Of a stretch of DNA of 64,000 nucleotides, positions 32,426-43,768 are shown in pieces. The notes beneath the pieces were generated by a model. The model was not told where the DNA came from, did not search any database, and saw only the letters and a list, made by a program, of their open reading frames with translations. This DNA comes from Cytophagaceae bacterium (lineage in GTDB: Bacteria; Bacteroidota; Bacteroidia; Cytophagales; Spirosomataceae): NCBI GenBank assembly GCA_027491195.1, contig JAIXWQ010000009.1, forward strand, positions 62,001 to 126,000, read 5' to 3'. Positions within the stretch are counted from its first letter, which is position 1, and each line of letters opens with the position of its first letter. The position numbers were made by a program, and so were the translations under genes.

Positions 32426-34795
<2,370 letters not shown>

Positions 34796-39354: not shown

Positions 39355-40818
39355 ATGCCAAAGTCCCCGATCAATATTGTCTGGTTTAAACGTGATCTCC
39401 GATTTACGGATCACGAACCTTTGTATCGGGCTTTGGACACTGGAATTCCCACCCTTTTAATCTATTTTTTCGAGCCCTCCCTCATCGAATTTCCTGACAG
39501 CGATGTGCGCCACTGGCGTTTTGTGCATGAATCTTTAGTGGAAATGCAGGGTAGGCTAGAGGGCCGAAATGGCCAGCTGTATTTGTTCCATTCCGAGGTC
39601 CTTCCCGTGTTCCAGGCACTCGCTTCATCCTACGATATCCAGACCCTTTATTCCCATGAAGAAATAGGGAACGCTCTGAGTTTTCAGCGGGATAAGGACG
39701 TGACGGCGTTCTGTTTGACTGCCGGAATAACATGGAAAGAGACCCCGACGAACGGGGTTATCCGCCGCTTGAAATCCCGGAAAACCTGGCAACAACGATG
39801 GGAAGCAACGATGCGTAGCGAACCCTTTTTTCAACGAGAGGATGACTGGAATTTACTGACTTTACCTGCTGATTTTTATGCCGCTTACAAGGGTCCTCAA
39901 TTACCATTGTCTTTTCAGACACGCAATCCCATCTTCCAAGAGGGGGGCGAATACTGGGGCTGGAAATACCTGAAAAGTTTCATCGAAACACGACATGTGG
40001 GGTATAGTTCATTGATCAGCAAACCAGAAGCAAGCCGAAAAGCTTGCAGTCGGATTTCGCCCTATTTGGCCTACGGAAACATCAGCATGCGGATGGCACA
40101 TACGTTTACCATGCAGCATTATAAAACGGCAAGAAACAAGCGTTCCCTTCAAAATTTTGTGTCGCGATTACACTGGCAAAGTCACTTTATCCAAAAGTTT
40201 GAGGACGAATCACGCATGGAGTTTGAGCCGGTAAATAAGGCATATCAAGGTTTGGAGAAAGACCGCGATGAACGATTAATTCAGGCTTGGGAAACTGGTC
40301 ATACCGGAGTTCCACTCGTAGATGCCTGCATGCGTTGTGTGGTGGCAACGGGGTATTTGAATTTTCGAATGCGGGCGATGGTGGTGTCGTTTTTCGTCTT
40401 TAATCTGTGGCAGGATTGGCGGGATTTAGCGCACTTTTTAGCACGGCAATTTCTCGACTATGAACCCGGTATTCATTACCCACAAATTCAGATGCAAGCC
40501 GGTGTGACGGGTATTAATACCATTCGCATTTACAACCCGGTGAAGAATTCATACGCACACGACCCAGACGGTGTTTTCATTAAAAAATGGGTGCCGGAAT
40601 TAGCCGCGGTTCCTGCCACCTTGATCCATGAACCATGGAAACTAAGCGACATGGAACAGACCTTGTATGGAGTTAAAATAGGCGTTGATTATCCTGCTCC
40701 AATAGTTGATTTAAGCGCGACGCGCAAGACGGCGTCGGATCAAGTTTGGGCGATGCGCAAGACGCGTACGGCCAGAAAAGAGAGTAGTCGCATCCTCCAA
40801 AAACACGTAAACAAATGA
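39355..40818 (+). CDS. cryptochrome/DNA photolyase (class I-like)
   Basis: Flavoprotein of 487 residues that uses blue light to repair pyrimidine dimers or to signal. The N-terminal antenna domain begins [16 protein letters not shown]; the FAD-binding domain shows [48 protein letters not shown] and [20 protein letters not shown], a complete photolyase fold. Whether it repairs DNA or acts as a cryptochrome is not decidable here. Its stop overlaps the start of the next photolyase family gene by four bases (ATGA), so the two are cotranslated. Confidence 0.88.
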
Positions 40819-42254
40819 GCGCATTTCTGATTTTTCCGCACCAGCTTTTCGATGAGACTTTGGCTCAGGACGCTGGTGTTTTTTACCTCATCGAGTCCGA
40901 TTTATTCTTTAAGCAATATGCCTTTCACAAACAGAAACTAATTTTCCACCGAGCAAGCATGCGCGCTTTTGCAGATCGACTGCGTGAGGCGGGAAAGACG
41001 GTTGAATACATCGATGCTCAAGATCTGAGGTCTTCAGAAGTCTCTCTCGGCGAGTCCATAAAAGGCGAAATTACCTTATTCGATCCGAATGATTATTTGC
41101 TAGAAAGGCGCTTGCGTAGGTCGGGCAACGTTCGTTTTTTACCTAGTCCTAATTTCCTAAATACGGACACTGCTTTATTAGGCAATCGCAAGCCTTATTA
41201 CCAAACTGCCTTCTATACCCAGCAGCGTAAAGACCGAGGCATCTTGCTAGAAGAAGACGGCAAACCGGTGGGTGGCCAATGGACTTACGATGCTGAAAAT
41301 CGAAAGAAAATTCCGAAAAACACGTTCATTCCGGCACCCTTTCCAGAGGCCGTTCCGAACACATACATTAACGAGGCCGTGAGCTATATTTCACATCATT
41401 TCCCAGATAACCCCGGGTCGAGTGACATGCCCTTTTCAGGCGCCTATTATCCGGTGACCCACGCGGAGTCGCAAGCTGCATTGGAATTGTTTTTAAGGGA
41501 ACGGATGCACTTGTTTGGTGATTACGAAGACGCGATTAAAGCACAGGAGAAGACCTTGTTTCATAGTATTTTAAGTCCGTTGATTAATGTGGGATTGCTT
41601 AATCCTGCTGATGTTGTGGCACGTGTCGCCACATGCCATGGCCCATTAAACAGCGTGGAAGGCTTTATTCGCCAAATCATCGGCTGGCGTGAATTCGTAC
41701 AATTGCTCTATCGCAAAATAAGCGTGCAGCAACGTACCACGAATTACTGGGGCTTCACGAATGAGATGCCGGCTGCCTTTTATGACGGAACGACAGGATT
41801 AGAACCCATCGATCAGACGATTCGTAAGCTCTTAAAAACGGGTTATAATCACCACATCGAACGCCTGATGGTGCTGGGGAATTTCATGTTATTGTGTGAA
41901 ATAAAACCCGACGCTGTTTATCGCTGGTTCATGGAAATGTACATCGACGCCTACGATTGGGTGATGGTACCTAACGTCTATGGCATGTCGCAATTTAGCG
42001 ATGGTGGATTGATGACGACAAAACCCTATATCTGCGGATCCAATTACATCTTGAAAATGAGTGACTACCCGAAGGGCGAATGGCAGGAGATTTGGGATGG
42101 GTTATTTTGGCGATTCTTAGATAAACAAAGGGAGACCTTCCGCAAAAATCCGCGTTGGGCGATGCTGATCAGTACCTGGGACAAGATGCCTTTGGAAAAA
42201 AAGGAAACGCATTTAAACAATGCAGAAGCCTTTTTAGCTCAGCTTTTTACTTAA
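40815..42254 (+). CDS. FeS-BCP/CryPro-type photolyase family protein lacking cluster cysteines
   Basis: A 479-residue protein of the prokaryotic (6-4) photolyase-like family ([59 protein letters not shown]). Members such as PhrB bind a 4Fe-4S cluster through a C-terminal YCxGC ... ACPF cysteine set. Here that region reads [19 protein letters not shown]: at least three of the four cluster cysteines and about ten residues are missing, while the FAD pocket looks intact. It overlaps the upstream photolyase gene by four bases and converges with the third family member. Confidence 0.85.
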
Positions 42255-43310
42255 TTTATTCCAATAGGAAAAGAAGCTATTGAACTCGCCTAAAAGTCCG
42301 GGAGAGAGCGTAGGATGCGCCTCCCGTATACCCTCAAAATGGGCATTAATGGGATGATCTCGGAAAATGGCTTTGATGTTAAGCGACGCATATTCGCCAT
42401 AATAAATCTGCATGCCTGGAATATTTTCGGCTAGATCATAAATGAATTGTATCGTCCGCGGAGACATCGGATGCTTCGCGAAATGACTCGGCTCTAAGAC
42501 CAAAATTCGGTTGCCTTCTTCCCCTTCATGAAAAGTAGGATCTAGGGTATAATGAGTAAACACGAAGGTGGGAAGATCTGCCTGAATCTCAAGTGCTTTC
42601 GTCACGGGTGGTGTGAAAACAAGATCCGCTTTCGCAGATTTTCTTAACTCTTCTGGCACCTGAAGCAAAGGCAATTCCTCGTACGTACAGTCTAAAAAAG
42701 TGCCCTGTTGTCTGCTGCCCGTATATTTATTGATGTTTTCTTGGTTCACATAATATAGCTTATTGCTAAAAGTACCAGCGCACCATTGCCAGCTCAAGGC
42801 ATTACTCGCTAAATCCCCATCCAATAAATGGTAGTACAACCAGGCTGCAGGTTCAGACCAATGGTATTTCCCCACATTGCAGGTGATGGCCGCCAGGTAC
42901 ATACGCAGGTGATTATGTAAATAACCGCGCTGTGGAAATGTGGCCAAGAAGGTGTCCAACGACCGAATCCCGGTCTCAGCAGATAACACCGCTTCCGGAA
43001 TTCCCTTGTTCAAAACTCCCTCTTGCGGATGGCGAATGTCTGTAAAAATTCCATCGCCTCTCTGAAACCAGGTACGCGTATAAAACTCCCGCCAAGCTAA
43101 TTCTTGTATAAATTTTTCCGCCTGTTCCATACCAATGCCGCGGTCTTTTAGTCGGGCTACGACTTGGGGTACTGTGATAAATCCGCGGGATAAATAGGGA
43201 GAAAGGTAGGAAACACCACCGTTCAGAAAATTACGGGAGCGGGCATAATGTGCGGGATCGAATGCATCGATTCGAGCATAAACGCCTTCAAGTGTCGTCG
43301 GAAATTCCAC
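42234..43310 (-). CDS. FAD-binding photolyase-like protein with reversed domain order
   Basis: A 358-residue protein. Residues 1-205 match the photolyase/cryptochrome FAD-binding domain (GGVSYLSPYLSRGFITVPQV; FIQELAWREFYTRTW; GYLHNHLRMYLAAIT; LASNALSWQWCAGTFSNK). The usual N-terminal antenna domain is missing, but residues about 245-345 look like an alpha/beta domain resembling it (NRILVLEPSHFAKHPMSPRT), so the order appears reversed. The GTG start overlaps the TIGR03643 stop (TAGTG), which indicates translational coupling. It converges with the other two photolyase genes with a 21-base overlap. Confidence 0.8.
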   Translation of the reverse strand: MEFPTTLEGVYARIDAFDPAHYARSRNFLNGGVSYLSPYLSRGFITVPQVVARLKDRGIGMEQAEKFIQELAWREFYTRTWFQRGDGIFTDIRHPQEGVLNKGIPEAVLSAETGIRSLDTFLATFPQRGYLHNHLRMYLAAITCNVGKYHWSEPAAWLYYHLLDGDLASNALSWQWCAGTFSNKLYYVNQENINKYTGSRQQGTFLDCTYEELPLLQVPEELRKSAKADLVFTPPVTKALEIQADLPTFVFTHYTLDPTFHEGEEGNRILVLEPSHFAKHPMSPRTIQFIYDLAENIPGMQIYYGEYASLNIKAIFRDHPINAHFEGIREAHPTLSPGLLGEFNSFFSYWNKLSKKLS

Positions 43311-43606
43311 TAGCGTTTGCTGATTTTATTCATACTGATGCTACGCTGCAGGGTGCATTTAAAACGGGGATCTACCGCAATGCGCTTTTGCAAATGTTTC
43401 GTTCCGCGACCCGTCATGCGTTTGCGCCACATGCGGAAACTTGACTCTTTGCTATTCAATCGCATGAATTCGATGACCTCTTTTTCTTTCAGCCCAAACT
43501 GAAATTCAATCGCCTCAAAAGGCGTGCGATCTTCCCACGCCATTTGGATGATGCGGTCAATGTCCTCGTCAGTAAACTTATTTGCTACGTCTGCACTTTT
43601 CACCAC
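43310..43606 (-). CDS. TIGR03643-family protein
   Basis: A 98-residue protein with the conserved core DEDIDRIIQMAWEDRTPFEA and QFGLKEKEVIEFMR, followed by SFRMWRKRMTGRGTKH, the signature of the TIGR03643 family, which is often found beside cryptochrome genes. It has a helix-turn-helix-like appearance and may bind DNA; the function is unknown. No in-frame ATG precedes the core, so a GTG at 43606 (or 43603) within the end of the DUF2256 gene is the likely start. The same frame runs further up to 43753, but that part is not coding. Confidence 0.75.
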   Translation of the reverse strand: MVKSADVANKFTDEDIDRIIQMAWEDRTPFEAIEFQFGLKEKEVIEFMRLNSKESSFRMWRKRMTGRGTKHLQKRIAVDPRFKCTLQRSISMNKISKR

Positions 43607-43715
43607 AGTAGATGATTTGATCCCAATTCTTCTCCCATTTCTTGCGCCAGGCGAAAGGGCGGTTGCATACGGGACAGGTTTTGGAAGGTAAATGTTGTTT
43701 CTTAACGCCTTGCAT
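43578..43715 (-). CDS. DUF2256 small zinc-ribbon-like protein
   Basis: A 45-residue protein: KKQHLPSKTCPVCNRPFAW then RKKWEKNWDQIIYCGEKCR, giving C14-x2-C17 and C37-x3-C41 with three conserved tryptophans, a clear match to the DUF2256 family. It lies in a different frame from the long open frame that covers the region. Its ATG follows directly after the T-run of the terminator of the upstream gene, and its 3' end overlaps the start of the TIGR03643 gene by 29 bases. Such proteins accompany cryptochromes in many genomes; their function is not known. Confidence 0.85.
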   Translation of the reverse strand: MQGVKKQHLPSKTCPVCNRPFAWRKKWEKNWDQIIYCGEKCRRSK

Positions 43716-43718
43716 AAA

Positions 43719-43750
43719 AAAAGGGCTTGCCTACAAAGACAAACCCTTTT
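43719..43750 (-). terminator. terminator between dinB-like gene and the DUF2256 gene
   Basis: On the minus strand, AAAAGGG-TTTG ... CAAG-CCCTTTT (one mismatch) followed by a seven-base T-run. The T-run ends at the ATG of the DUF2256 gene. Confidence 0.7.
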
Positions 43751-43768
43751 CATCTAAAAATGTTTCGA

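Follow-up and report, generated by a model that had tools for sequence, protein, structure and literature searches.

What does a bacterium do with three photolyase-family genes set side by side, together with genes for two small proteins? The question is raised by a 4.4-kb cluster in a window of 64,000 nucleotides from a Cytophagaceae bacterium (Bacteroidota; assembly GCA_027491195.1, contig JAIXWQ010000009.1, positions 62,001 to 126,000), whose genome is a 2.49-Mb assembly, 98% complete. The cluster holds three photolyase-family genes, here called P1, P2 and P3, and genes for a DUF2256 and a DUF2805 (TIGR03643) protein, in overlapping frames. On balance, it is probably a module for the photorepair of several ultraviolet (UV) lesions, with the two small proteins as helpers. 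The three enzymes are non-canonical, yet members or variants of largely known kinds, and a conserved set of genes surrounds P3.

Layout of the cluster

The original prediction had three different photolyase-family genes lying close to a DUF2256 and a TIGR03643 gene, and matches to Pfam and NCBIfam models bear this out (Table 1). It further described two of them as cotranslated and the third, on the opposite strand, as coupled to the two small proteins. In the sequence P1 and P2 overlap by 4 nt, and DUF2805 and P3 by 1 nt, the final base of the DUF2805 stop codon being the first of the P3 GTG start. DUF2256 and DUF2805 overlap in different frames, whilst P2 and P3 are convergent and share 21 nt. 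Four PF03441 matches are present in the genome, the fourth of which (G000:C11, L001) is a photolyase with the canonical class I residues retained. At positions 43716-43768, where a DinB-family gene ends, an inverted repeat that resembles a terminator and includes a T run directly adjoins the DUF2256 ATG, leaving almost no space for a separate promoter.

Table 1. Genes of the photolyase cluster, with positions in the window
Gene product	Position	Strand	Domain or family matches
P1: divergent photolyase, 487 aa, own clade	39355-40818	+	PF00875 + PF03441
P2: assigned to the prokaryotic (6-4) photolyase family, without Fe-S cysteines, 479 aa	40815-42254	+	PF04244 (DPRP) + PF03441
P3: inverted-topology (short/NewPHL-like) photolyase by its model, 358 aa, GTG start	42234-43310	-	PF03441 only, residues 67-189/358
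DUF2805/TIGR03643 small protein	43310-43606 (probable GTG start 43606 or 43603)	-	PF10985, TIGR03643
DUF2256 small protein, 45 aa, CxxC...CxxxC	43578-43715	-	PF10013

The three photolyase-family proteins

P2 is assigned by sequence to the prokaryotic (6-4) photolyases: it combines PF04244 with FAD_binding_7, and its closest solved relatives are enzymes of this family (8ijy, 3zxs, 4dja and others), with an E-value of 1.9e-78 against the S. elongatus 6-4 photolyase 8ijy. At the positions which we take to be the Fe-S ligands, the loop bearing three cysteines has been lost, and proline stands in place of the one other aligned cysteine. With the four [4Fe-4S] cysteines absent, P2 appears to lie outside the FeS-BCP subtype. 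The CxxC...C motif is likewise missing from 56 of 58 distinct P2 homologues and kept in two Pedobacter-type ones. At two Pedobacter P3 loci (L062 and L063) an Fe-S-type (6-4) photolyase occupies the place of P2, so that either type can take this position.

The loss of the cluster in P2 is not new, as Fe-S-free (6-4) photolyases are already described, in the excerpts available from PMC9178010 and PMC9426592, as subgroup M, including PromaPL. According to the same excerpts, members of this subgroup (PromaPL of Prochlorococcus, Phr2 of marine Synechococcus) share with P2 the PF04244 N-terminal domain, FAD_binding_7 and the lack of Fe-S cysteines. P2 differs from them in being encoded with P1, P3, DUF2256 and DUF2805, and its likeness to PromaPL is one of described features, not of sequence.

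P3 was modelled with AlphaFold2 (mean predicted local distance difference test, pLDDT, 95.7). From its first residue to about residue 220 the model resembles the photolyase catalytic domain (Z 16.0 to E. coli 1dnp, root-mean-square deviation 2.7 over 217 residues), and the C-terminal remainder is modelled as a small alpha/beta domain. As modelled, P3 has the topology of the NewPHL/SPL enzymes, in which the flavin adenine dinucleotide (FAD) domain comes first, a second domain is C-terminal and no N-terminal antenna domain is present. In a tree of FAD domains, P3 joins alphaproteobacterial and Deinococcus proteins of equal domain order, presumptive NewPHL members, with support of 97/89. It differs from NewPHL/SPL in forming a separate Bacteroidota clade (100/97) and in its location in a photolyase cluster. 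A profile alignment of P3 to three alphaproteobacterial relatives extends no further than residue 222, short of the C-terminal domain.

Evidence on the origin of that domain is mixed, and the idea that it is an antenna domain displaced by circular permutation is suggestive. Predicted alone (pLDDT 87.3), the domain has as its six best structural matches prokaryotic (6-4) photolyases (Z 6.6 to 6.3 over 89-115 residues), with chain ranges within 1-163, that is, the antenna domain; 37 of the 50 matches listed are photolyases or cryptochromes. Against permutation, the same Z of 6.3 is reached by a universal stress protein domain, and Z-scores below 8 may reflect a mere common arrangement. In its favour, PF00875 matches the C-terminus of two Deinococcus relatives of P3, both under the curated cut-off (E 2.3e-4 and 1e-3); against it, PF00875 was not found in the C-domain of P3 itself, of one Bacteroidota orthologue (L061) or of three alphaproteobacterial relatives. 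A Foldseek search with the domain returned no match at E <= 0.001, its best rows being unrelated proteins. With hhalign no similarity was found to the N-domains of P2 or P1, a weak test in that the N-domains of P2 and P1 also failed to match each other. On a plasmid of Deinococcus sp. QL22 (L137:3875-5166) an inverted photolyase is split into two adjoining, overlapping genes, the second annotated as hypothetical and carrying a sub-threshold PF00875 match.

On four NCBIfam class models P1 reaches 118-143 bits, under every class cut-off listed, compared with 202-428 bits for seven other photolyases of this phylum. Its identification as a DASH cryptochrome was ruled out by the score on TIGR02765 (143 bits against a cut-off of 317; 145-171 for three P1-type relatives). 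Its placing as a bifunctional photolyase of the PhrSph98 type, a group described as class II-like in the available part of PMC9649867, finds no support, the score with the phr2 model being only 37 bits.

The FAD-domain tree (52 domains, with random subsets of P1, P2 and P3) places P1 among class I-like proteins, in a clade of 16 P1-type members (10 from Bacteroidota, 5 from Proteobacteria, 1 from Deinococcus) with support of 100/100 and a stem of 1.89. Long branches meet in this tree, so its deeper joins are unsure. Judged by residues, P1 appears to fall outside the class I cyclobutane pyrimidine dimer (CPD) photolyases. We take the relevant active-site and Trp-triad positions, in E. coli numbering, to include E274 (the class I Glu), W384 (lesion-side Trp) and W382 (FAD-proximal Trp). 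In an alignment with the canonical photolyase of the same genome, on which the residue calls for the window P1, including the E to R change, rest, the positions of E274, N341, W382 and W384 read R, F, I and M, and those of W277 and W359 are retained. Among 28 Bacteroidota P1 proteins, Arg in the E274 column and Met in the W384 column are each found in at least 90%, and the W382 column, Ile in the window P1, is mostly Phe. The alternative set is kept in Bacteroidota, Vibrionaceae, Pseudoalteromonas, Tritonibacter, Deinococcus and Duffyella. Class I CPD photolyases and DASH cryptochromes have the same two-domain order as P1, which differs in its long stem, its exchanged active-site residues and its scores under the class cut-offs. 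P1 could belong to the 'DASH-like' group named in the excerpt available from PMC9178010.

A pointer to the role of P1 comes from a fusion. On plasmid pDEIPR01 of D. proteolyticus (L142:3995-6268), a P1-type photolyase is joined to a full uracil-DNA glycosylase, with matches over the curated cut-offs, and all seven Deinococcus rows listed as P1 matches are annotated as uracil-DNA glycosylase. Reversal of a deaminated dimer leaves uracil, and the fusion fits its removal; a single protein would then couple the two steps neatly. The fusion favours repair over pure light sensing.

The two small proteins

The DUF2256 protein, with four cysteines, matches PF10013 at 74.5 bits (cut-off 25) and belongs to that family, and the DUF2805 protein is recognised over curated cut-offs by both PF10985 (E 2.4e-32) and TIGR03643 (110.6 bits, cut-off 66.55). 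The longest open reading frame over DUF2805 (43310-43753, minus strand, 147 aa) is an over-extension which reads DUF2256 out of frame; from the sequence, the start more likely lies at one of the two adjacent GTG codons. Automatic annotation could thus mis-start DUF2805 and overlook the 45-aa DUF2256 gene.

DUF2256 has been assigned to the TRASH clan, whose domains bind metal through cysteines, and is highly frequent in bacterial proteins no longer than 50 residues, whilst a metagenome study found DUF2805 to correlate with domains related to translation, as stated in the available portions of PMC4047054, PMC11796252 and PMC3597751, respectively. Judged by eye from its sequence, DUF2805 has a helix-turn-helix-like pattern. 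A role for the two proteins as DNA- or RNA-binding helpers is plausible on these sequence features. A search of openly licensed PubMed Central literature on DUF2256, DUF2805 and TIGR03643 found no link to photolyases in the text excerpts it returned.

Conservation around P3

One test proposed with the original prediction was a repeated association of these families in other genomes, and this association was found within Bacteroidota, as well as among some of the Proteobacteria plasmid records examined. In a phylum sample of 296 genomes, with P3 orthologues accepted above a drop in score from 234 to 121 bits, 16 further genomes hold an orthologue across most of the length of P3, one of them matched in two pieces. 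Two partial candidates in short open frames (G280, 121 bits; G101, 68 bits) were left out, although a DUF2256 gene lies about 1 kb or less from the G280 fragment. In the 16 genomes, the region of about 6 kb around P3 contains DUF2256 in 11, P2 in 10, DUF2805 in 7 and P1 in 2, with none of them in 1. At least one member thus lies near P3 in 15 of 16, a degree of clustering that exceeds chance.

A second set, the best 80 of 577 named P3 loci, overlaps in part with the other P3 locus set (L063 and L083 seem to come from the same genomes as L037 and L039) and includes some short contigs. Here P2 is found in 51 loci, DUF2256 in 43, DUF2805 in 42 and P1 in 25. Where at least 4 kb is available on each side of P3 (48 loci), the counts within about 6 kb are 35 for P2, 32 for DUF2256, 29 for DUF2805, 13 for P1 and 2 for none. 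The order DUF2805-P3-P1-DUF2256-P2 recurs, as in loci L072, L094 and L122. The closest named relatives of P3 among these best 80 are from Cytophagaceae and Spirosoma metagenome-assembled genomes, at 76-84% identity.

Other genes recur near P3. By single-linkage clustering, a flavin-reductase-like protein is found in 25 of 98 loci (2 of the 25 confirmed by Pfam), and a short-chain dehydrogenase/reductase (SDR), grouped by clustering only, also in 25 of 98. At locus L069 (3508-5660) genes for a lycopene cyclase and a beta-carotene 15,15'-dioxygenase stand just before DUF2805-P3, a position which ties the cluster to retinal synthesis in that genome. The SDR and carotenoid genes seen at other P3 loci are absent from the cluster in the window. 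About 4.6 kb upstream of it, at 32462-34795, lies a gene which by eye resembles KatG catalase-peroxidase.

Co-occurrence across genomes and on plasmids

Co-occurrence was assessed by Fisher tests in a set of 148 Bacteroidota genomes, kinship being allowed for only by a count at genus level. DUF2256 (48 genomes, after two weak partial matches were taken from 50: G082, just over the cut-off, and G011, under it) and DPRP (49 genomes) share 46 genomes (p 4e-32). Counted by genus, 32 are shared of 33 and 35, among 83 genera (p 2e-18). DUF2256 and DUF2805 (43 genomes) share 37 (p 7e-19). P1-type matches, all above 270 bits with the next best at 167, are found in 20 of the genomes, every one of which also holds DPRP and DUF2256. 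The same is true of all 14 genomes with P3, a count which presumes that the set is G000-G147.

Association extends to other phyla and to plasmids, many of which carry photolyase-family genes. Acinetobacter plasmids have TIGR03643, DUF2256 and a cryptochrome/photolyase gene adjoining one another, a P1-type photolyase adjoins DUF2256 in Salinivibrio and Tritonibacter, and in Sphingomonas DUF2256 adjoins a photolyase gene. Three Novosphingobium replicons hold P1, DUF2256 and P2 matches together. At least 18 of the 60 DUF2256 plasmid records listed have a listed match to P1 or P2 no more than 3 kb away. This is a lower bound, the count having taken 60 of 134 DUF2256 records, 30 of 72 for P1, 35 for P2 out of 60 listed from a total of 87, and 11 chosen DUF2805 records. 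Near the Nostoc and Pseudoalteromonas DUF2805 genes examined, no photolyase is annotated, and about 3 kb separate a Vibrio DUF2805 gene from one of P1 type.

Repair module, light sensing or loose set

How would a repair module work? It would supplement the canonical photolyase, whose gene lies in another part of the genome. In this reading P2 would reverse (6-4) photoproducts, P3, like the NewPHL enzymes described, would reverse CPDs in single-stranded DNA, and P1 may handle a third photoproduct or context. The changed active site of P1 and its loss of the FAD-proximal Trp suggest that its flavin would be reduced chemically and not through the usual Trp triad, as does the flavin-reductase-like gene recurring beside related clusters. 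DUF2256, as a putative zinc-binding mini-protein, and DUF2805, probably a helix-turn-helix protein, may act as nucleic-acid-binding helpers, in recruiting the photolyases or in controlling the cluster.

A number of observations weigh against such a module. P1 and P3 share 3 of the 148 genomes, no excess over chance (p 0.29), and P1 lies near P3 in only 2 of the 16 phylum-sample genomes with P3. The five genes are therefore not one obligate unit, P1 and P3 being alternatives or extras and not obligate partners. A photolyase-family gene lies no more than 5 kb from DUF2256 at 32 of 48 places, and for DUF2805 another member or a photolyase is that close at only 18 of 47. These proximity counts are lower bounds, the positions of other photolyases having been taken partly from the matches listed. 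On one Pantoea, one Hirschia and one Spirosoma plasmid no photolyase is annotated within 4-5 kb of DUF2256 in gene tables that are incomplete. The DPRP model pools Fe-S and Fe-S-free proteins, so the DUF2256 link is with the whole family and not with the P2 type. The window cluster has no flavin reductase gene of its own. Finally, the residues of canonical repair are replaced in P1, which may therefore not repair DNA at all.

This last point opens the way to light sensing, in which at least one of the proteins would be a cryptochrome-like photoreceptor, most likely P1 given its replaced repair residues, its signal passing through DUF2805 as a helix-turn-helix regulator and DUF2256 as an adaptor. 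The loss of the class I residues together with the conservation of an alternative set across several bacterial groups would suit this role. A related (6-4) photolyase, RsCryB, is reported in the excerpt available from PMC9178010 to regulate photosynthesis and energy-metabolism genes, and some P3 loci stand near carotenoid or retinal synthesis genes. The Deinococcus fusion, however, points to repair, and no recurrent sensor kinase or output domain is seen in the five-gene cluster, a response-regulator-like protein occurring near P3 in 6 loci only. Furthermore, DUF2805 is far from photolyases at 29 of 47 places. Sensing thus appears unlikely. The original prediction had allowed for either joint repair or light sensing: the fusion favours the former, and the latter finds no direct support here.

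Alternatively, the genes may be a loose set of independent light-stress functions, grouped through shared light- or UV-induced expression and co-transfer. Membership and gene order do vary, P1 and P3 do not co-occur above chance, the recurrence of SDR and carotenoid genes nearby makes the neighbourhood functionally mixed, and photolyase-family genes travel on many plasmids. Such an explanation is nevertheless doubtful. Another member lies within 5 kb of 22 of the 49 DPRP genes (DUF2256 in 21 cases), and none of the other four lies that close to the remaining 27, despite which DUF2256 and DPRP share 46 genomes. Co-transfer of neighbours alone is insufficient to account for this.

Relation to known systems and implications

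A related arrangement is the UV-B-inducible operon of Synechococcus sp. PCC 7335, in which, as in P1 and P2, two photolyase genes have overlapping frames, and are there co-transcribed. Its partner enzyme is by contrast a class II-like bifunctional one, and the available part of the report (PMC9649867) does not mention DUF2256 or DUF2805. A conserved cluster of three photolyases was not found described in the openly licensed PubMed Central literature searched.

A bolder form of the repair module can be drawn, though we think it improbable as a whole. DUF2256, with DUF2805, would be a general partner of photolyases, binding zinc and loading or stabilising them on nucleic acid. The P1 proteins would represent a separate photolyase class that has lost Trp-triad photoactivation, acting on a non-CPD lesion with electrons from a flavin reductase. 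P1, P2, P3 and the helpers would form one multi-lesion complex, and the C-domain of P3 would be a permuted antenna domain.

The near one-to-one presence of DUF2256 and DPRP in the Bacteroidota sample gives DUF2256, a domain with no assigned function, a testable job. The P1 clade, with its rebuilt active site and, in Deinococcus, its fusion to uracil-DNA glycosylase, suggests that the set of lesions repaired by light, or the ways in which photolyases are supplied with electrons, may be wider than the model enzymes indicate.

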